A stretch of DNA of 64,000 bases, from positions 558,001-622,000 of the forward strand of contig NZ_CP109055.1 in NCBI RefSeq assembly GCF_035975855.1, read 5' to 3'. Below the pieces are notes generated by a model. It saw only the letters and a list, made by a program, of their open reading frames with translations. It made no database searches and was not told where the DNA came from. This document shows positions 18,159-28,704 of this stretch, in pieces; positions within the stretch are counted from its first letter, which is position 1; every line of letters starts with the position of its first letter. A program made the translations under genes and the position numbers. The DNA is from Streptomyces sp. NBC_01304. GTDB lineage: Bacteria > Actinomycetota > Actinomycetes > Streptomycetales > Streptomycetaceae.

Positions 18159-19940
18159 TCAGGTCCTGTCGTGCGGCCGGGCCACCTCGCGGGTCCGGGC
18201 GGCGAGCAGGGCGATGTCGTCCCCCGACGGGCCGTCGGTGAGCTGGGCCAGGACGTCGTCGAGGATCTTGTGGAGGCTGTCGCGCGGGGACAGCCGCAGC
18301 CGGGTCAGCCGCTGCAGGGAAGCATCGATGTCCTCGCCCCGGCGCTCGATGAGGCCGTCGGTGTAGAGCAGCAGGACGCCACCGGGCAGTCCGGGCCGGG
18401 TCACGGTGGCGTACTCCCCCAGACCGGTGCCGAGCGGGGGTCCGGCCGGGACCGGAACGATCTGGGGTGGGCCGTCGGGGGTCAGCCGCAGCGGCGGCAG
18501 ATGACCGGCACTCGCGTAGGTGACGGTGTCGGTGTGCGGGTCGCCGAGGACCAGGAGGCAGGTGGCGACCCGGTCGAAGCCGGACTCGGCGACCATGAGG
18601 TCGGCGTAGGTGAGGACATCGTCCAGGGCCAGACCGGATGCGGCCAGGGCGCGCAGCATCGAGCGGTAGTGGCTCATGGCGACGGCGGCCTCCACGCCGT
18701 GCCCCATGACATCGCCGATGACCAGCAGGTTGCGGCCCTGGGGCAGGGCGAGCGAGTCGAACCAGTCACCGCCGACCAGGGAGCTGTCGTCGGCGGGCAG
18801 ATACCGCGAGGCGGTCTCCAGGCCGGGGTGCGGGGCGCTCGGCTCGCTCAGCAGGGCGCGCTGCAGCTCCAGCGCCATGGTGTGTTCGCGGGCGTAGTGG
18901 AAGGCCCGTTCCAGCGCACGGGCCGCGCGGGTGGCCAACTCCTCGGCGACCAGGGCGTCTTCAGGGGTGAAGGCCGGGGACGGGCCGGTACGGACCATGG
19001 ACAGGGTTCCGAGCGGCCGCGACCGGGTGGCCAGCGGAACGACCAGCGCGGAGTGGATGCCCGCCGCGCGATAGCGGCGCAGGCGTTCGGCGTAGGGGCC
19101 CGCGACGGCGTCGCCGTCCGGGTCACGCAGGTCCTGCAGCCAGGGCCGGCCCTGTTCCATGGACTTGCGCAGCGGCGAGTCCGCGTCGTAGTCGACAAAG
19201 CCACTCGGGCGGGCAAGGTCGCCCAGCGCCTCCTTCAGGGCAAGAGTGGCGCTCAGCGCGGCGCGGCGCAGGCGCATGATGCCGGGCGGTGTGTGGTCCT
19301 GCCGGTCGGGCCGGTCCACGGGGTAGAGCTCGACGGCGGCGGCGTCGGCGAGGCCGGGCACGACGAAGTCGGCGAGCTCGGCGCAGGTGGCGTCGACGTC
19401 GAGGGTGGTGCCGATGCTCACGGCCGCCGTGTCCAGGAGAGCCATGCGCTGGTGGGCGCGCTCCAGGCCGTGCAGGTACTGGCGCGGCTCGGTGATTTCC
19501 AGGCCGATGCCGACCAGGCCGATGACGTTGCCGCGCTCGTCCTCGATGCGGTGATAGGTGCTGCGCCACTCGCGGTGGGCGAACGGGGAGCGGGCCTGGG
19601 TGTGGCCGGAGATGACGATCTCGCGAGGGCGGCCGTCCCGCAGGACCTGGCGCAGCGCCTCTGCCGGGCGGTACACGCCGGGGAGGAGGTCGGTGATGGT
19701 GCGGCCCATGTGGGCCTCGGCGGGCATTCCGTTCATGCGGGCCAGGTGCGGATTGACGTACAGGTAGCGCAGGTCGGTGTCGAGCACGACAATTCCCGCG
19801 GCCGCGCCGTCCACGATCTGCCGCAGCACCCGGTACTCGCGGCCCAACCGGGAAGAGGAAGCGGCCGGGCCCACCGCTGCGAGCAGCGCTTCCGCATCGA
19901 AGGTCACGAGCGGCCGCGCGGCGAAGGCGTCCCGGCTCAC
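18159..19940 (-). CDS. PAS-GAF-PP2C (SpoIIE/RsbU) serine phosphatase
   Basis: 593 aa. GTG 19940 is chosen for the strong GAGGAGGTGG ahead of it; ATGs upstream lie in non-coding sequence. Domains: PAS about 30-140 (GIVVLDTDLRYLYVNPHLARMNG), GAF about 160-330, and a PP2C SpoIIE domain about 365-590 (SSLVGGDWFDS, VIGDVMGHG, LLLYTDGLIERRG, SGDDIALLAA) with all metal-binding Asp motifs present. Enzymes of this type dephosphorylate anti-anti-sigma factors; no anti-sigma ATPase domain is fused here. It is abundant in Streptomyces and probably senses a stress signal through PAS/GAF. Confidence 0.9.
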   Translation of the reverse strand: MSRDAFAARPLVTFDAEALLAAVGPAASSSRLGREYRVLRQIVDGAAAGIVVLDTDLRYLYVNPHLARMNGMPAEAHMGRTITDLLPGVYRPAEALRQVLRDGRPREIVISGHTQARSPFAHREWRSTYHRIEDERGNVIGLVGIGLEITEPRQYLHGLERAHQRMALLDTAAVSIGTTLDVDATCAELADFVVPGLADAAAVELYPVDRPDRQDHTPPGIMRLRRAALSATLALKEALGDLARPSGFVDYDADSPLRKSMEQGRPWLQDLRDPDGDAVAGPYAERLRRYRAAGIHSALVVPLATRSRPLGTLSMVRTGPSPAFTPEDALVAEELATRAARALERAFHYAREHTMALELQRALLSEPSAPHPGLETASRYLPADDSSLVGGDWFDSLALPQGRNLLVIGDVMGHGVEAAVAMSHYRSMLRALAASGLALDDVLTYADLMVAESGFDRVATCLLVLGDPHTDTVTYASAGHLPPLRLTPDGPPQIVPVPAGPPLGTGLGEYATVTRPGLPGGVLLLYTDGLIERRGEDIDASLQRLTRLRLSPRDSLHKILDDVLAQLTDGPSGDDIALLAARTREVARPHDRT

Positions 19941-20299
19941 CGGCCACCTCCTCGACGTTCGTGCGGGGCGGCCGCGCGGTCGGCTGCCCTGCCCGTGCCG
20001 CCGGGCCGAGACTCCATGATCCGTCAGGGACGGGCGGCCCGCACGTCCACAGGATCGAACGTTCATTCGCGTTGCGGTGAGGGGCCTCCGCCGGTGTGCA
20101 CGATCTGGACGAGGCGAGGCCGCACGGCCGACCGCCCCGCAGCTCGTACGCCCCCAACACCGCGGATGGGGAGGGTCATTGACAACAGCAAGAGGTGCGC
20201 GCAGGATCCGATCTCGGCCGGTATTTCCCGTACCGAGGGGGTACGTGCTTGAGATCACCGGCGATGGCGGCACATCAGGACCTCAAGGGGGAAATCGCG
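19941..20299. other. Divergent intergenic region
   Basis: 359 bp between the phosphatase and DUF1801 genes. It contains a TTGACA-like -35 (around 20179, plus strand) and a short inverted repeat, CGTACC-N5-GGTACG (20229-20245), 55 bp before the DUF1801 start. No gene is seen. Confidence 0.35.
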
Positions 20300-20881: not shown

Positions 20882-20915
20882 CCCCCAAGAGGGCGGCGCT
20901 CCGCCGCCGAGGGGG
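20882..20915 (+). promoter_or_regulatory. Hairpin that sequesters the ribosome binding site of the lectin gene
   Basis: Inner stem GGCGGCG (20892-20898) pairs with CGCCGCC (20902-20908) around a 3-nt loop. An outer CCCCC (20882-20886) pairs with GGGGG (20911-20915), which is also the only Shine-Dalgarno-like run before ATG 20924. It could act as translational control or as a terminator of the DUF1801 gene. Confidence 0.5.
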
Positions 20916-20923
20916 TAGTGATC

Positions 20924-22240
20924 ATGGGCGAGAACCATGGATGGCTGCTGCAGGCGGGAGACTTCCTGCGCGTGGGCGACTGGCTGCTGTGCGGTGACGG
21001 CCCCAACGGCAACACCTATGCGGCCGTCATGCAGGGCAACGGGGATCTGCTTCTCTGCTACGCGACAGCGGACGGCAACCCCGACCCGTCGCGGCGCTAC
21101 TACTCCCTGATCCGGGACAGCGCCCCGGGCCACATGGGGAATCCGAACTTCTACTTCAACCCGGCGCAGACCAACGGCCAGTACTTCACGGTCATGCAGA
21201 TGGACGGGAACGTCGTGATGTACACGGGGCCCGACCCGGCGCGGTTGAGGCAGGCGTACTGGGCGACCAACACCTCCATCCTCAGGAACAGGGGCGGCTA
21301 CTGCCTGTCGCTGGGACGCGACGGCAACCTGCGCCTGCACGACGTCGCAGAGGCCGCGGCGGACCCGACGAACCCCGAGGTCACGCCCGTGTTGTGGCAG
21401 ACCGCGCTGACCTACCCGGCGCAGCGGGCCGCCCGCGGCAACTGCCTGCACACCGACCAGTGGCTGGCCACAGGCGACTACCTGACCTCCGCCAACGGCC
21501 GGTTCGCCGCGCTGTTGCGCGACGACGGCAACCTCGTGCTGTGCAGCACCGGCAGCAACCGCACCCCGGACACCAGCCGCATTTACTGGTCGGCCTTCGA
21601 CCAGGGAGCCAGCCGCAAGGTCGGCACTCCCGCCGGCGCCCCGTACTGCGCCGTGCTGCAGACGGACGAGAACTTCGTTCTCTACAACGGCGGCCGCCCG
21701 CCCCACGCCGGAGACAAACCGTCGCCGTACTGGGCGATCAGCAACGTCGGCCGGCCCGCCACCGACTCCGTCGCCGTGCTGCGCGACGACGGGATCCTGG
21801 CCGTGCTCCCCGGCACGGACGCCGCCGCCACGGTGAGCCCTCGGTTCCAGACCACCGGGCCGCCGGACGTCCGTACGACGATGAAGGTCAACTGGCCGAC
21901 GTACGCCAAAGCAGTCGTGCCGATCACGCTCACCAACCTGGGAACCACTCCCTCGGCGCCGGGCGCCATGAAGATCGACGTCAATCTGGTCCAGTTCTTC
22001 TCGAACAAGATGGGGGCGGGACCCGACTGCCAGATCACACGCGACGGCGAGCACAGCACCACGTTCGTCTGTCAGGTGCCGGCCATCGCCGCGGGAGCGA
22101 CCCACACCCGTGAGCTGACCCTGGAGAACCTGTCCCACCAGGCCCCGCGCTACGCCCAGGCCCGTGTCACCACGACGATCCCGGGAGACACCGACCCGTC
22201 CAACAACTCCGGGTACACCGACATCACCTTCCGGGGCTAG
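20924..22240 (+). CDS. Bulb-type (mannose-binding) lectin with tandem domains, no signal peptide
   Basis: 438 aa with ATG 20924. It contains at least six repeats of the B-lectin type QxDxNxVxY, for example VMQMDGNVVMY, LLRDDGNLVLC and LQTDENFVLY, in two domains (about 10-150 and 180-300); several copies keep the D/N/V/Y ligands, while others (QGNGDLLLC, RDDGILAVL) are degenerate. Residues about 325-438 form a CARDB-like beta sandwich (VPITLTNLGTTPSAPG, NNSGYTDITF). It has no signal peptide or membrane segment, so it is cytoplasmic or exported by a non-Sec route; related bulb lectins include bacteriocins of the lectin-like class and tailocin-associated proteins. The ligand is probably a D-mannose-type sugar. 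Confidence 0.82.
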   Translation: MGENHGWLLQAGDFLRVGDWLLCGDGPNGNTYAAVMQGNGDLLLCYATADGNPDPSRRYYSLIRDSAPGHMGNPNFYFNPAQTNGQYFTVMQMDGNVVMYTGPDPARLRQAYWATNTSILRNRGGYCLSLGRDGNLRLHDVAEAAADPTNPEVTPVLWQTALTYPAQRAARGNCLHTDQWLATGDYLTSANGRFAALLRDDGNLVLCSTGSNRTPDTSRIYWSAFDQGASRKVGTPAGAPYCAVLQTDENFVLYNGGRPPHAGDKPSPYWAISNVGRPATDSVAVLRDDGILAVLPGTDAAATVSPRFQTTGPPDVRTTMKVNWPTYAKAVVPITLTNLGTTPSAPGAMKIDVNLVQFFSNKMGAGPDCQITRDGEHSTTFVCQVPAIAAGATHTRELTLENLSHQAPRYAQARVTTTIPGDTDPSNNSGYTDITFRG

Positions 22241-23195: not shown

Positions 23196-23831
23196 GGGTC
23201 AACTCCGAGTTCGGTCGAGACGAGAGGAGTCGCGCCTGGCGGCACCGGTTCCGCCAGGAGTGCGACATGCCAGGTTCGACCGGCGCGGTGGGGCGGGAGT
23301 TGTACCTGGGCGGCCGCTGTTACCCGGCTGTGGCAGGAGGTGGGTTTGTCCGGGTTGCGGGTTCACCTGAACGTCGGCCGGAGGTCGCCCCGCATTGCCC
23401 TCGGCGGGTACATGGAGGGGGCCGGCGTGGCGGCCGGAGGGGTTCGGCGAGCCGTCCGAGACCCACCCGAACGTTCCGAACGCCTAGAAGAACAGCACCA
23501 GTTGGGCCCCGGTGACTGACGCGGCAGCCTGTTGGGAGTCCGTGATCAAACACCCCCGCTCTGCAAAGCGGAACTCGACCATGGATTTAGTCAGACTCGA
23601 GTGAACGCGCCACACCTCTCGCGAACGGGTCCGCCCCGGCATCGAGCGCACCGTCGCCGCACCCAAACCACGGGCCCGACAAGCGTCCAGCCGCCCCAGC
23701 CGAGACCGGCGCCTCACCCCACCCGCATTCCGCGCTGTAAAGCGGACGCCGCGCACGCCTTATTGCCCATTCACAAGAGCAATTTGGAGTGCGTCCCGCA
23801 TCGCGGCCGGGCGTTCGCTGAGGAGATATCA
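23196..23831. other. Long intergenic region upstream of the peptide locus
   Basis: 636 bp with no convincing gene. It contains a hairpin CCTGGCGG-N8-CCGCCAGG (23235-23258) in the leader of the minus-strand secreted-protein gene, a repeated 12-mer CTG[C/T]AAAGCGGA (23561-23572 and 23735-23746), and a dyad ATTGC-N12-GCAAT (23762-23783) about 50 bp before the first small ORF. The last two may belong to the promoter of the peptide operon. Confidence 0.4.
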
Positions 23832-23921
23832 GTGCACGACTACCGAACAGAATTCTCCCGGCATGGCCTTGACACGACCATGCCGTGGCCAGAGCATTAC
23901 TGGCGTTCACCAGTCCGGTGA
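23832..23921 (+). CDS. Small ORF, 29 aa, first gene of the peptide locus
   Basis: GTG 23832 follows a strong AGGAG with a 6-nt gap. The product is polar and aromatic: it starts MHDYRTEFSRHG and ends HYWRSPVR, with no cysteine and no hydrophobic core, so it is not a membrane peptide. It ends 25 nt before the second small ORF. It could be a leader/attenuation peptide, a regulatory peptide, or a second substrate. No homologue is recognised; evidence is RBS quality and position only. Confidence 0.5.
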   Translation: MHDYRTEFSRHGLDTTMPWPEHYWRSPVR

Positions 23922-23946
23922 ACACTGCGACGTGGGAGGTTCTTGA

Positions 23947-24033
23947 ATGTCCGCCATCGTCTCCACCCTGAAGCACACGAAGTACATCATGGGCTCCATG
24001 GCCGGCGTGCTGTTCACCAATTGCCCCAGCTAG
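23947..24033 (+). CDS. Candidate precursor peptide, 28 aa, hydrophobic with C-terminal Cys
   Basis: ATG 23947 follows GGGAGG with a 7-nt gap and a TAG stop at 24031-24033. The N-terminal half is amphipathic with two lysines (K9, K12) and Tyr13; the second half is hydrophobic (IMGSMAGVLF) and ends TNCPS with Cys26, which is reminiscent in plan of AgrD-like or other membrane-attached signal peptides, though without sequence identity that I can name. A perfect hairpin begins 7 nt after the stop, as in RiPP operons where the precursor is made in excess. The next genes are an adenylate-forming ligase and an intramembrane protease, so it is the best candidate substrate for both. Coding status is inferred from RBS, codon use (third-base G/C) and context. 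Confidence 0.7.
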   Translation: MSAIVSTLKHTKYIMGSMAGVLFTNCPS

Positions 24034-24040
24034 TGGGCTT

Positions 24041-24073
24041 CCGGGGTGGACGGCGACCCGCCGTCCACCCCGG
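24041..24073 (+). terminator. Perfect 14-bp stem hairpin: partial terminator/attenuator
   Basis: CCGGGGTGGACGGC (24041-24054) pairs with GCCGTCCACCCCGG (24060-24073) around a 5-nt loop, followed by CCTTTCC. It lies between the small peptide ORF and the ligase gene, where partial termination would make the peptide more abundant than the enzymes. Confidence 0.85.
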
Positions 24074-24117
24074 CCTTTCCGGGCATTCGAACTTCGGCAT
24101 TTCGGGCGGGGAGAGTC

Positions 24118-25533
24118 ATGTTCGACGCGGGCATCCGGCAGTTCCGGCTGGCATGGGCGATGGTGCTCGGACGCCCGATCAACGTACGATCCGCCGAGAA
24201 ACTGGTCGCCGACGCCTTGGCGACGCTGGCTGAATTCGGCTCCCCCGGCGAGGACGTCGAGCAGCTGCTGCGCGGTGCCTCCGCAGACCCGCAGATGCGA
24301 ACCGATCTCACGAACAAGGCAGTGCGCCGCACCGCGAAACGGCTTGCGGCCAAGTCGGCCTTCTACGCCGAACAGTTCAAAGCCGCCGGCATCGACCCGG
24401 CGACACTGGACATCGACAACATCACCGCGGTGCCGGTGACCACCAAGACCGATCTGGTCAAACGCGCCGACGATTTCCTGTGCAGCGAGCCGTTTCTCGC
24501 CTCCCGGACCACGGGGACGACAGGACGCCCCGCAGAGGTCTGGTACTCCGCGTACGAAGAGCGCCTGTGGCCCGCCCTGGTGGCCCTCTCCCAGATCCTT
24601 CGCGGCAACGTCCGCACCACTGATCTGATGCAGTTCAACGTGAGTTCACGCGCCACCGGCACGTCGTACGCCGAAATGCAGGTGGCCCGTCTGGCCGGCG
24701 CGGCCATCCGCATGGTCGGCCTGGTGCCGCCCGCCGAGACCCTCGACCTGATGACCGGCACGGACGCCAGCGCGCCCACCCTGATGGTCACTTACCCCAG
24801 CTACCTCGGCCGGCTGATCACCGAGGCACGTGAACGCGGCCTCGGACCCGACGACTTCAGGCTGCGCGCCATCAACGTCGGCAGCGAGGTGCTCTCGCCC
24901 GCCCTCGCCAAGGCGGCCGCCGACACCTTCGGCGCCCGCATCAACGACGGCTACGGCATGACCGAACTCACCCCGATGGCCGGCGCGATCTGCCGGCAGC
25001 AGCATCTGCACATCGACTCCAGCATCGGCCTGGTCGAGGTGTGCGACCTGGAGACCGGCGAACGGGCCGAACCGGGCGCCCTCGGCACGATCGTGGCGAC
25101 GCCCTTCTACCCGTACCGGGAGTGCATGCCGCTGTTCCGCTACGACACCCGTGACCTGGTGCGCCGCCTTCCCGACGGGCCACTGGACTGCGAGATGGCG
25201 AACGTGCCGGCGACCTCGCACGTCCTCGGCAAGGCCGATCATGTGCTGCGCACGGCCGACGGCGTGGTGACACCACGCGATGTGATCGAGGTCCTGGACG
25301 CCCTGCCAGGGGTCCAGTGGCCGGTGCGGCACCGGGCCACCGTCGTCGACGGCAAACTGCGGATCGAGCTGCCCAGGTCGCAGTCCGGCGACTGGGACCG
25401 CGCCGACGTGATCGCCCGCTTCGCCGCCGCGGGCATGGACACCGACCTCGACATCGTGGACGTCGACGGCCGCGAACTACGGCGCTACCGCTGCGACTTG
25501 ACCGAGAGCAGCTTCACGAGGAGGACCGCGTGA
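24118..25533 (+). CDS. Phenylacetate-CoA ligase-like adenylate-forming enzyme
   Basis: 471 aa with ATG 24118 after GGGGAGAG. It is an ANL-superfamily enzyme of the PaaK/CapK type: phosphate-binding motif SRTTGTTGRPAEVW, core motif INDGYGMTELTP, FRYDTRDLVRRLP, and LGKADHVLRTADGVVTPRDVIEVL. These enzymes activate a carboxylate as acyl-AMP and pass it to CoA or another nucleophile. In the last 60 residues I see no clear catalytic A10 lysine (the end reads ELRRYRCDLTESSF), so the chemistry may be atypical. Its start follows the peptide ORF and hairpin, and its stop overlaps the protease gene (GTGA), so they are translated together. The substrate may be the peptide C-terminus or an acyl chain for the peptide; this is inference. 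Confidence 0.85.
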   Translation: MFDAGIRQFRLAWAMVLGRPINVRSAEKLVADALATLAEFGSPGEDVEQLLRGASADPQMRTDLTNKAVRRTAKRLAAKSAFYAEQFKAAGIDPATLDIDNITAVPVTTKTDLVKRADDFLCSEPFLASRTTGTTGRPAEVWYSAYEERLWPALVALSQILRGNVRTTDLMQFNVSSRATGTSYAEMQVARLAGAAIRMVGLVPPAETLDLMTGTDASAPTLMVTYPSYLGRLITEARERGLGPDDFRLRAINVGSEVLSPALAKAAADTFGARINDGYGMTELTPMAGAICRQQHLHIDSSIGLVEVCDLETGERAEPGALGTIVATPFYPYRECMPLFRYDTRDLVRRLPDGPLDCEMANVPATSHVLGKADHVLRTADGVVTPRDVIEVLDALPGVQWPVRHRATVVDGKLRIELPRSQSGDWDRADVIARFAAAGMDTDLDIVDVDGRELRRYRCDLTESSFTRRTA

Positions 25534-26417
25534 GCGGCGCACAGCACGCCTTCTTCATCCTTGTCACGCTGGGCATCTCGGTGGGCGTCGCGCTCGCGGG
25601 CGTCGCGTTCTTCCGCCGGTTCACCCTGCCGCGGCCGGCCGTCGGCGCGTTCAACGGCAACGACATGGTCATCATGATGGCCTTCGTCGTCGCGCTGCCT
25701 TTCCTCTATCTCGCCCTGCCCGGCTGGCTGTTGCCGTTCTTCCTCGGCCTGACCCTGATCGGCGGCCTCGCGGTCACCTGGGGTGCGGTGATCCGGCCCG
25801 GCCGGCTGCGGTGGCTGCTCATCCTCGGCCTGACGATCGCCGACTGGATCACCGCACGCGCCGCCGAGAACGACCCCACCAACGCCACGCCCTACTGGCT
25901 GGTCAACAGCATCATGATCGTGATGATGGCGGTCGGCGCGGCCAACATGAACGCCCAGGGCGGCCTGCAATTGCGCCACGTGTCCCGGTTCGCACTCGCC
26001 CTGGCCGTGTACGACATCTTCTTCGCCACCGTCGTGCCGATCACCCAGAAGCTGTTCAACGCGGTGCAGGGCTACGCCTACGCCCCCTCGGCGGGCATCC
26101 GCATCGGGGACCTCGGGGCCGTCGTGGGCATGGGTGATCTCCTGGTGTACGCGCTGTACACCACCGTCGCGTACAAGTCGTACGGGCGGCGGGGACTGGC
26201 CGTCGCACTGGGCCTCGTCGCCGTCTTCGGCGGTCTGCTGCCCCCGATGACACCGCTCCTCGTCGAGGCACTCACCGGCGAGCTGCCGACCATGATTCCC
26301 GCCCAGATCTACTTCGGTCCCGCTGCCTTCGTGGGCTATCTCGTCCTGCGCCGCAGCGGCCCGGAACGCCGCATGATCGACGTCCGGCCCCCGGCGGCAG
26401 CCGCGGCGGCGGCGTAG
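25530..26417 (+). CDS. Presenilin/SPP-like intramembrane aspartyl protease (GxGD type)
   Basis: 295 aa from GTG 25530, overlapping the ligase stop by 4 nt. It has about eight or nine hydrophobic segments. The two catalytic signatures of family A22 are visible in neighbouring segments: Y161-D162 in LAVYDIFFATVV and G200-M-G-D203 in VVGMGDLLVYALY, the latter close to the presenilin form GLGDFIFYS. The third signature (PAL in the last segment) is replaced by something like IYFGPAAF, which is a departure from canonical PAL. The C-terminus ends in an Ala tract. Bacterial A22 homologues are rare. Because it is coupled to the ligase and sits behind a hydrophobic 28-aa peptide, intramembrane cleavage of that peptide is the obvious hypothesis. 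Confidence 0.8.
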   Translation: MSGAQHAFFILVTLGISVGVALAGVAFFRRFTLPRPAVGAFNGNDMVIMMAFVVALPFLYLALPGWLLPFFLGLTLIGGLAVTWGAVIRPGRLRWLLILGLTIADWITARAAENDPTNATPYWLVNSIMIVMMAVGAANMNAQGGLQLRHVSRFALALAVYDIFFATVVPITQKLFNAVQGYAYAPSAGIRIGDLGAVVGMGDLLVYALYTTVAYKSYGRRGLAVALGLVAVFGGLLPPMTPLLVEALTGELPTMIPAQIYFGPAAFVGYLVLRRSGPERRMIDVRPPAAAAAAA

Positions 26418-26705: not shown

Positions 26706-27095
26706 ATGTCTGATCTTGAGCGCAACAAGCAGGTCGTCGTCGACTATTACCGGACGGCATTCGGCGGCAATCCGCAAAAGGCGATCGCCGACCACTTCGG
26801 GCCCGCATACATCCAGCACAACCCCGATGCCGAGGACGGCCCGGAGGCGTTCATCGGCTTCGTTTCCTGGCTGCGCGGCGAATACCCGGACCTGAAGCTC
26901 GACATCAAGCGCGTCATCGCCGAAGGCGACATGGTCGTCACCCACTCCCACCTGGACCTGGAGCCGAACAACCCGGACAACCCCGGCCGCGCGCTGGCGG
27001 ATTACTTCCGCCTGGACAATGGCAAGGTCATCGAGCACTGGGACGTCATCCAGGACGTGCCGGCCAAGTCGGCGAATCCCAACGGCATGTTCTGA
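26706..27095 (+). CDS. SnoaL-like (NTF2 fold) protein
   Basis: 129 aa with ATG 26706; only a weak ribosome binding site is visible (GGAACGGAATC). It belongs to the SnoaL/NTF2-like group with ester-cyclase-like features: VVDYYRTAFGGNPQKAIADHFGPAYIQHNP, then VTHSHLDLEP and IEHWDVIQDV. Family members are polyketide cyclases, hydroxylases or uncharacterised small enzymes. It is monocistronic by position (terminator at 27134) and carries no clue to its substrate. A link to the peptide operon upstream is possible but not supported beyond proximity. Confidence 0.85.
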   Translation: MSDLERNKQVVVDYYRTAFGGNPQKAIADHFGPAYIQHNPDAEDGPEAFIGFVSWLRGEYPDLKLDIKRVIAEGDMVVTHSHLDLEPNNPDNPGRALADYFRLDNGKVIEHWDVIQDVPAKSANPNGMF

Positions 27096-27219: not shown

Positions 27220-28704
27220 GTGCTGTCACCCCACGAACTGACCCCCGCCGAACGTGAGTTGTGGGACGCATTTCCCGCTGGGCGCCTGGTGGATCTGCGT
27301 ACGGGAGTGGCCGAGGACGACGATCCGGGCGCCGGTGAACGCTGGGGCGTCGAGCGAGCGGTGCGGGCCGAGGTCCTGGTCGCGCTGCTCCTCGGCGCCA
27401 ACGAGCGCACCGAACACGCGGTGGCCGCCCTGCGGCTCGCCGGAGCGCGGATCACCGGCCGGCTCTTCCTCGACGAGGCGGAGGTGGCGCATTCGCTGTG
27501 GCTGGAGGGGTGCTGGTTCGACGAGGAGGTCAGCATGACCGGGGCGGCCACCCGAACCCTCAGCTTCCAGAACTGCCGGATGCGCCGCTTCGACGCGCGC
27601 CTGATCCGCGTAGGCGGCCGCTTCATCCTGGAGCACTCGGTGGTCAACGGCCAGCTCTCGCTCATCGACGCCAGAGTCGCGGGATCCCTGCACTTGAGCA
27701 GCAGCACCTTGTCGCTGCCCGGTGACTGGGCCCTGTTCGCCGGCGGCCTGGAACTCGGCGGCGCCCTCTTCGCTCGCAGGGGCTTCACCGTGCACGGCGG
27801 GACCCGCCTCGTCGGCGCCCAACTGCCCGGGCTGCTCCTCGAAGGGGCGAGCCTGGGTGAGGGGTTCGGCCACTCCCTCTACGCCGACAAGGCAGAGATC
27901 ATGACGCTCGTCTGCACGGACGGCTTCACCGCCGAGGCGACCATCTCGCTGCGGGGCGCCCACATCACCGACCTGCTCACGTTCGACACCGCCAGGCTCA
28001 ACGGCAAAGACCTGGCCCTGGACTGCGCCCGCGCCCGCATCGGCGACCTCCAGTTCACCCCGGCAACCCGCCCCCCGGGCGCCGTCGACCTGCGAGACGC
28101 GCAGGTCGGCGTGGTGCGCGACCGACATGGGGCCTGGCCCGAGGCCTTCCATCTGCAGGGCCTGACGTACGACACCTTGCAGTTCGACGCGGGCGCGGGA
28201 GTGCCGGACGACGTGACCCTGCGGGTCGGCTGGCTCCGCAAGGCCTCCGGCTACGCCCCACAGCCGTACGAACAACTCGCGGGCTGGTACCGGAAGATCG
28301 GCAACGACACGGACGCCCGCCGGGTCCTCTTGGAGAAGCACCGCCACCGCCGGCGCACGCTGCCACTCGCCGGACGCGTCTGGGGACACATCCTGGACGT
28401 CACCGTCGGCTACGGCTACCGGCCCTGGCGGGCCGGCGCCTGGCTCCTCGCCCTCACCCTCCTCGGCTCCCTGGTGTTCCAGTACCAGGACAGGACCCCC
28501 CGCAACCCCGGCCAGACCTCGCCCTTCCACCCCGTGGCCTACACCCTCGACTTGCTGATCCCCATCGGCGGCCTGGGCCAGCGCAATTCCTGGTACTGGG
28601 AGTCGACTCCGGCGCAGTGGCTCGCGTACGCCCTGATCGCAGCGGGCTGGCTCCTGACCACGGCGGTCGTGGCGGGCGTGACCCGGCAGCTGAACCGAAC
28701 CTGA
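27220..28704 (+). CDS. Membrane protein with beta-helix repeats and C-terminal transmembrane segments
   Basis: 494 aa from GTG 27220 (an earlier GTG at 27184 falls in the promoter). Residues about 65-300 show repeated short beta strands (ITGRLFLDEAEV, VGGRFILEHSVVNGQLSL, AGSLHLSSSTL, ISLRGAHITDLLTF), a pentapeptide/bactofilin-like right-handed helix. The end carries two hydrophobic segments (WRAGAWLLALTLLGSLVF and WLAYALIAAGWLLTTAVVAG) separated by FHPVAYTLDLLIPIGGLGQ. Streptomyces proteins of this type are commonly labelled 'membrane-associated oxidoreductase', but no cofactor motif is visible, so that name is not supported here. Function unknown. Confidence 0.75.
   Translation: MLSPHELTPAERELWDAFPAGRLVDLRTGVAEDDDPGAGERWGVERAVRAEVLVALLLGANERTEHAVAALRLAGARITGRLFLDEAEVAHSLWLEGCWFDEEVSMTGAATRTLSFQNCRMRRFDARLIRVGGRFILEHSVVNGQLSLIDARVAGSLHLSSSTLSLPGDWALFAGGLELGGALFARRGFTVHGGTRLVGAQLPGLLLEGASLGEGFGHSLYADKAEIMTLVCTDGFTAEATISLRGAHITDLLTFDTARLNGKDLALDCARARIGDLQFTPATRPPGAVDLRDAQVGVVRDRHGAWPEAFHLQGLTYDTLQFDAGAGVPDDVTLRVGWLRKASGYAPQPYEQLAGWYRKIGNDTDARRVLLEKHRHRRRTLPLAGRVWGHILDVTVGYGYRPWRAGAWLLALTLLGSLVFQYQDRTPRNPGQTSPFHPVAYTLDLLIPIGGLGQRNSWYWESTPAQWLAYALIAAGWLLTTAVVAGVTRQLNRT

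Follow-up and report, generated by a model that had tools for sequence, protein, structure and literature searches.

Signal-peptide-derived pheromones are cut by the membrane protease Eep. Among the Agr-type processing proteases, AgrB belongs to family C75 and MroQ to family M79 (PMC10885120), and epipeptides and daptides mature through intramembrane proteases of the M50/site-2 metalloprotease kind, according to passages of PMC10885120 and PMC10036551. Presenilin-like enzymes, treated apart from the prokaryotic prepilin peptidases, are described for eukaryotes and archaea in part of a further paper (PMC2947513). Here, we analyse a 2.5-kb cassette in the 11-Mb genome of Streptomyces sp. NBC_01304, located in a stretch of 64,000 nucleotides of contig NZ_CP109055.1 that was analysed as a whole (hereafter, the window). 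The cassette lies on the + strand and consists, in this order, of a 28-codon open reading frame (ORF), a hairpin, a gene for a PaaK-like ligase homologue, and a gene for a membrane protein. We read it, with a probability of about 0.52, as a self-contained system in which a presenilin-type protease would cleave a dedicated peptide precursor within the membrane and the ligase homologue would tailor it.

The small ORF, which had been picked out in a first-pass annotation of the window, starts with ATG behind a clear ribosome binding site, and a peptide of the same plan is encoded just 5' of the ligase gene in 38 of the 38 assessable loci that carry both enzymes; conservation of a small ORF at homologous loci was a check set in advance by that annotation. 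The pattern underlying this count was drawn up with the peptides already known. The peptide occurs in 29 distinct forms from at least four genera, with one match per locus, and both enzymes are represented in all 38 loci by matches free of inner stops (the L085 protease runs into the contig end). Left out of the count were L003, the contig of which starts 25 nucleotides 5' of the ligase gene, the decayed loci L045 and L054, and the repeats L006-L008, L076, and L077. The loci found via the membrane protein fall into three sequence tiers (T1, T2, and T3), each of which has the small ORF, with its ribosome binding site, in the same position. The peptide is MSAIVSTLKHTKYVMGSLAAVLFTNCPS in T1, MSAIKTSAKQFKYVMGAMTAVFFATCSAS in T2, and MVKHYVKYAFSTLTAAMFASMV in T3, where the ligases are 75-80%, 50-53%, and 35-40% identical to the window ligase, respectively. 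Further genera from the family sample contributed one peptide MAKTVRHYAKYAISTLTSAMFMPIHS and two that begin with GTG. The other loci likewise have a purine-rich stretch ahead of the peptide, and the size of the precursor varies from 22 to 29 amino acids (aa), short enough for gene finders to miss; in one annotated plasmid record, the gene table of which is incomplete, no feature covers the peptide. The first-pass annotation had proposed two peptides, the other being a 29-aa ORF at 23832-23921. In 10 other T1 loci, tblastn detected no counterpart of this ORF (best E-value 0.67, at scattered places), and at the DNA level, its region matches the closest relative, L092, only over the last 48 nucleotides searched (23893-23940, 81%). 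Thus, only the 28-aa peptide is conserved, and the 29-aa ORF is most likely a chance one.

The Lys-Tyr pair of the peptide and the Phe located ten residues behind it are invariant in all 29 distinct forms, and variability is low as far as this Phe and rises sharply directly after it. Substitution rates, expressed as the ratio of nonsynonymous to synonymous changes (dN/dS), point to purifying selection on the leader (0.10 in T1, 0.08 in T2, and 0.14 in T3) and are higher in the tail of 4-6 residues (0.47, 0.41, and 1.49, respectively); the values derive from small sets of related sequences (9, 8, and 18 distinct DNA sequences, respectively, covering 37 of the 38 loci) and represent trends, not tests. 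The tails follow the pattern x-x-C-x-S in T1 and x-x-C-S-x-S in T2, with the Cys and the last Ser invariant among the 14 distinct T1 and T2 peptides, and T3 tails lack Cys. A product based on Cys, as envisaged in the earlier annotation, is therefore not supported as a general rule, and, given the Cys-free T3 tails, Cys-based lipidation or thiolactone formation was rejected as the general chemistry. Among the peptides tested from T1 and T2, the 10-residue window of highest hydrophobicity stops at the Phe. The arrangement corresponds to that of a ribosomally synthesized and post-translationally modified peptide: a short precursor ORF linked to putative tailoring and protease genes in 38 of 38 loci, with a conserved leader and a variable core. 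By analogy, the conserved leader and the fast tail resemble precursors that give rise to a variable product.

The membrane protein was detected in 23 of 392 genomes of the genus, a patchy distribution, and 22 of these 23 have a neighbouring ligase match, the exception being G019, where only a remnant is present; a ligase search of 219 genus genomes yielded 14 positives, all among the same 23, so that the co-occurrence on which the earlier proposal depended is borne out. The two genes overlap by four nucleotides, the ligase stop and the start of the membrane-protein gene sharing GTGA as had been noted before, and 28 of the 29 loci examined (3 of them repeats) retain this overlap, L053 being the exception. 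Matches were found in 15 of 297 genomes and 4 of 17 genera of the family sample. In the class sample, the T3 protease matched 4 of 296 genomes, with a strong match in G000 only and three at E ~1e-4; at E<=1e-60, the ligase was detected in 1 of 394 genomes of the class and 1 of 396 of the phylum, in both cases G000. Three plasmid records carry the cassette (L092, L093, and L094), all of them large linear plasmids of Embleya and Streptomyces, and one of them was classified as mobilizable. A T3 locus lies on a plasmid of Streptomyces sp. NBC_01324. The peptide, the ligase, and the membrane protein are the only components that recur across the three tiers: no other recurring gene was found within up to 6 kb 5' and 9.5 kb 3' of the ligase start, in stretches that were often shorter than this; matches to individual loci of another tier were seen for a few ORFs. 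Two decayed cassettes were observed, one in G269 (L045), with a frame-broken protease, a ligase match from residue 180 only, and no peptide found, and the other in G019 (L054), with the protease remnant inside a longer frame. In T2 only, a divergent neighbour is shared by similarity in 7 of 8 loci (L038:4021-4911, - strand, and six others); the one scanned is IclR-like (HTH_IclR, 4.1e-10) and might have a dedicated regulatory or sensory role.

A structural model of the membrane protein (VIA-align comparison) displays the presenilin/signal peptide peptidase (SPP) fold, in support of the presenilin-type assignment made earlier from the YD (161-162) and GMGD (200-203) signatures, both of which were verified; identity to human PSEN1, SPPL2a, and the archaeal PSH is 12-18%. 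Y161 and D162 lie in helix 148-167, G200xG202D203 opens helix 201-249, and a short helix (171-179) is situated in between, which places the two motifs on neighbouring helices; they are invariant in 76 of 76 sequences. Pro257 is likewise invariant, and the position of the PAL motif is occupied by PAQ in T1 and T2 and by PLL in six of eight T3 rows. The archaeal MCMJR1 also lacks an obvious PAL, as noted in a passage of PMC2947513. No Pfam family matched the membrane protein at E<=10, no presenilin/SPP model appeared among the 12 families listed for 30 of its relatives, and PF06550 (SPP) had no match in the own genome. At a loose threshold, an SPP model gave matches in two bacterial control genomes, and the cassette protein need not be the first bacterial member of the presenilins. 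Homologues of the protease carry the names Actinomadura, Dactylosporangium, Actinoallomurus, Sphaerisporangium, and Catenulispora. Among the relatives, the metagenomic protein P0069 contains a plastocyanin/cupredoxin domain (precomputed PF00127), and one member of the membrane-protein alignment has a Copper-bind match (6.5e-08).

The ligase homologue matches the Pfam AMP-binding family (1.3e-12), and its family profile matches the phenylacetate-CoA ligase 4r1l (8.6e-33) and AjiA1 (6wuq, 5.6e-24) in the PDB, consistent with the earlier call of a PaaK-like, adenylate-forming enzyme; the match to the BagE_FevW model of NCBIfam (4.1e-16, 59 bits) is far under the cut-off of 800. The A3, A5, and A7 motifs of the ANL N-domain are kept (TTGT[TS]G, [MV]TE, and YxTxD, respectively), and C292, H296, H298, C336, and C358 are invariant in 56 sequences. 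The A10 lysine is missing: in two alignments with some sequences in common, none of the 16 rows of one and none of the 56 rows of the other has GKxxR within its final 60 residues, and a conserved RxDLxExxF takes its place. The ordinary PaaK of the same genome keeps SVGKIKR. With this lysine missing throughout, the ordinary ligase reaction assumed in the first-pass annotation is unsupported, and its suggestion of an acylated or C-terminally activated peptide remains a guess. AjiA1/NatL2 operate without domain alternation, as stated in part of a review; considering this together with the missing lysine, we propose, with low confidence, that the enzyme forms a bond directly on the peptide. That a PaaK homologue should do without the A10 lysine is itself chemically puzzling. 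The ligase branch is wider than the cassette found here, with 1244 proteins at E<=0.001 among 8000 scored and at least 120 relatives at >=50% identity among the matches listed, most of them from metagenome sources.

A local hairpin with an energy between -28 and -45 kcal/mol is present in the spacer 3' of the peptide in all 25 loci of the first set. In the window, the stem is perfect, as described previously, and comprises 15 rather than 14 base pairs. The energy of the whole spacer reached z <= -2 against simple shuffles in 18 of the 25 loci, and in 31 of 38 loci, the longest stem was reached by at most 2 of 100 dinucleotide shuffles. Across ten T1 sequences, 99.2% of the cells of the hairpin are paired, and both sides change in 3 of the 12 pairs (compensatory). 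The number of both-side-change cells was reached by 1 of 500 shuffles, that of both-side-change pairs by 86, and that of pair types by 489, and slid versions of the alignment gave no pair changing on both sides. No U tract was seen by eye at the hairpin, so that it appears to be a processing or partial-termination element raising the peptide over the enzymes, and it may set a high peptide-to-enzyme ratio. An Rfam scan of 23400-24300 found no family at gathering score (best P17, E 0.43), and a known RNA element at the locus was accordingly rejected.

Table 1. Features of the cassette (positions in the window)
Feature	Position	Strand	Remarks
Ribosome binding site GGGAGG	23934..23939	+	read directly; 7 nucleotides 5' of the peptide start
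28-aa precursor-like peptide MSAIVSTLKHTKYIMGSMAGVLFTNCPS, ATG start	23947..24033, stop included	+	counterpart in 38/38 loci; purifying selection
Conserved peptide leader, residues 1-23	23947..24015	+	K12-Y13, then hydrophobic stretch to invariant F23
Variable C-terminal tail TNCPS, residues 24-28, proposed site of the product	24016..24030	+	dN/dS contrast, T1
GC-rich hairpin, perfect 15-bp stem (24041-24055/24059-24073), 3-nucleotide loop	24041..24073	+	between peptide and ligase
PaaK-like ANL-family enzyme, 471 aa, without A10 lysine	24118..25533	+	N-terminal extension of ~60 residues
Presenilin/SPP-fold membrane protein, 295 aa	25530..26417	+	putative catalytic Asp162 (YD) and Asp203 (GMGD); invariant Pro257 (PAL-like)

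Under the favoured reading, the first gene would be translated into a precursor of 22-29 aa, probably in excess over the enzymes given its clear ribosome binding site, its first position in the operon, and the hairpin behind it. This precursor would be akin to a bare signal peptide, with a Lys-containing N-terminus, the Lys-Tyr pair, a hydrophobic stretch to the Phe, and a short tail, and we infer that it inserts N-in, C-out. The presenilin/SPP-fold protein would cut the hydrophobic stretch and free the tail outside the cell, with or without some of the hydrophobic residues, as suggested by operon coupling, co-occurrence, and the substrate class of SPP. In the weakest step, the PaaK-like enzyme would tailor the peptide, perhaps through an ester, amide, or thioester at the tail carboxylate, a reactive group common to all three tiers. 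The product would most likely be a pheromone-like signal or a small bioactive peptide, with its specificity set by the tail. More tentatively, the cassette might define a novel class of actinomycete ribosomal peptide pathways, in which a signal-peptide-like precursor is served by a dedicated bacterial presenilin that has its substrate in its own operon, and a lysine-less PaaK enzyme forms a bond at a hypervariable tail of 4-6 residues, yielding strain-specific pheromones.

Several observations weigh against a peptide-maturation cassette. The folding energy gave z above -2 against simple shuffles in 7 of 25 loci, and the stem is not outstanding in 7 of 38 (L033, L040, L049, L079, L083, L084, and L085). 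In T3, the most hydrophobic 10-residue window extends into the tail, blurring the split between leader and tail; the tail could simply be loosely constrained, and the T3 ratio of 1.49 refers to 4 codons only. No transporter, receptor, or regulator recurs across the tiers. Without its A10 lysine, the ligase may not carry out the activation step, and not every presenilin-fold protein need be a protease.

The strongest rival, albeit an unlikely one in our estimate, is that the peptide belongs to the presenilin-fold protein or the ligase as a small single-pass subunit or regulator, and that the cassette acts on some other substrate. KdpF, CydX, and Pen-2 are models for such a role, which would suit a hydrophobic peptide of single-pass size, encoded by one gene per locus and strongly conserved in its leader and hydrophobic part. 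However, the dN/dS of the tail exceeds that of the leader by a factor of about 5 to 11, and yet the tail retains a fixed Cys and Ser in T1 and T2; the hydrophobic stretch seems, by eye, short for a stable transmembrane subunit; and the hairpin that follows the peptide gene in most loci points to unequal expression. We regard as improbable a membrane-active toxin, type I-like or bacteriocin-like, with the protease and/or the ligase homologue providing immunity or disposal: although the peptide is short, hydrophobic, and cationic, and the cassette stands alone, is also plasmid-borne, and is patchily distributed (23 of 392 genus genomes), a fixed leader with a fast tail better suits a maturation pathway, the two enzymes are translationally coupled to each other, and PADLOC returned no match for the ligase and two proteases.

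It is similarly hard to credit a role of the ligase homologue and the membrane protein in making or moving a small molecule, with the membrane protein being no longer a protease. The annotated plasmid record gives the name 'phenylacetate--CoA ligase family protein' to the ligase and lists the membrane protein as hypothetical, and PaaK relatives of the BagE/FevW type, to which the enzyme has the weak NCBIfam match, have non-peptide products; nevertheless, both putative catalytic Asp residues and their motifs are invariant in 76 sequences, and this account leaves the peptide in 38 of 38 loci unexplained. The least probable of these alternatives is a regulatory leader, the translation or stalling of which would, together with the hairpin, control expression of the ligase and the protease. 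A tiny ORF followed by a hairpin and then by enzyme genes is indeed the layout of an attenuator, but the hairpin begins after the stop codon and shows no U tract by eye, no Rfam family reached its gathering score in the scanned interval, and the C-terminus is the most variable part of the peptide, the opposite of stalling peptides, in which conservation is usually highest near that end. The analysis demonstrates conservation, linkage, motifs, and the rate contrast, together with the fold in a model, whereas the orientation and cleavage of the peptide, its identity as the substrate, the product, and the role of this product as a signal are inferred.

Two other candidates were rejected, namely, anti-phage defence, on the same PADLOC result, and phage origin, as no viral contig relative was found (one scan, one pattern). 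Just 3' of the cassette, the window encodes a SnoaL-like protein (26706-27095, +), the only tblastn match of which in cassette loci is the window's own copy; because it is absent from the other loci, this gene is probably outside the cassette. It is followed by a gene for a 494-aa protein (27220-28704, +) with a sub-threshold pentapeptide-repeat match (E 0.15), a C-terminus that is hydrophobic by eye, and no clear family. On the 5' side, the window encodes a protein with a weak B-lectin match (20891-22237, +; E 5.9e-06, under the Pfam cut-off) and a PAS-GAF-SpoIIE phosphatase (18162-20270, -), a common kind of regulator in streptomycetes.

The cassette, which is carried by soil actinomycetes, suggests a new bacterial route to a small peptide, perhaps a signal. 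With a presenilin-fold protein in a minimal operon next to a plausible substrate of 22-29 aa, a single small construct makes it possible to test the natural substrates of presenilins and an ancestral role for them. A literature search through titles and the starts of abstracts, with subscription papers mostly and bioRxiv preprints wholly outside its range, found no description of such a cassette and none of six peptide strings in print, in line with the remark of the first-pass annotation that it knew of no described pathway with this combination. In the relevant part of a 2025 review of membrane proteases, presenilin is treated with gamma-secretase and the archaeal homologue (PMC12067869); a native mass spectrometry study mentions, in passing, 'the bacterial presenilin homologue' (PMC8396450), which probably means the archaeal PSH; and in PMC7768045, bacteria, archaea, or prokaryotes are named in two reference titles only.

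Compared with the presenilin/SPP proteins, the cassette protein shares the fold and the YD/GxGD Asp pair, but is bacterial, only 12-18% identical, has PAQ or mostly PLL in place of PAL, and occurs together with a PaaK-like enzyme and the tiny peptide. In the type IV prepilin peptidases (A24), the catalytic Asp residues are in soluble regions, several transmembrane segments apart, according to a passage of PMC2947513, whereas the Asp pair of the cassette protein is on neighbouring long helices. With the PaaK-type aryl-CoA ligases (AjiA1/NatL2 and the BagE/FevW relatives), the cassette enzyme shares the sequence family and the A3, [MV]TE, and YxTxD motifs; in contrast to them, it lacks the A10 lysine, ends in RxDLxExxF, carries the N-terminal extension of ~60 residues, and has no recurrent catabolic or biosynthetic cluster beside it. 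The signal-peptide pheromones cut by Eep and AgrD with AgrB/MroQ are alike in combining a short hydrophobic pro-peptide, a membrane protease, and a variable C-terminal product, but depend on metallo- or cysteine-type proteases, whereas the cassette has an aspartyl presenilin fold and an ANL-family enzyme; in place of the AgrB-type cysteine protease of an Agr-type autoinducing peptide, there is a presenilin-fold protein with no Pfam match. Epipeptides (EpeX/EpeP) and daptides (MpaP) are ribosomal peptides with intramembrane-protease maturation, like that proposed here, but they use M50/site-2 proteases and other tailoring enzymes, whereas the cassette protease differs in fold and is accompanied by no further recurrent gene, the daptide set of a site-2 protease fused to a recognition element (RRE), a decarboxylase, an aminotransferase, and a methyltransferase being absent. 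The two enzymes of the cassette are new branches of known folds.

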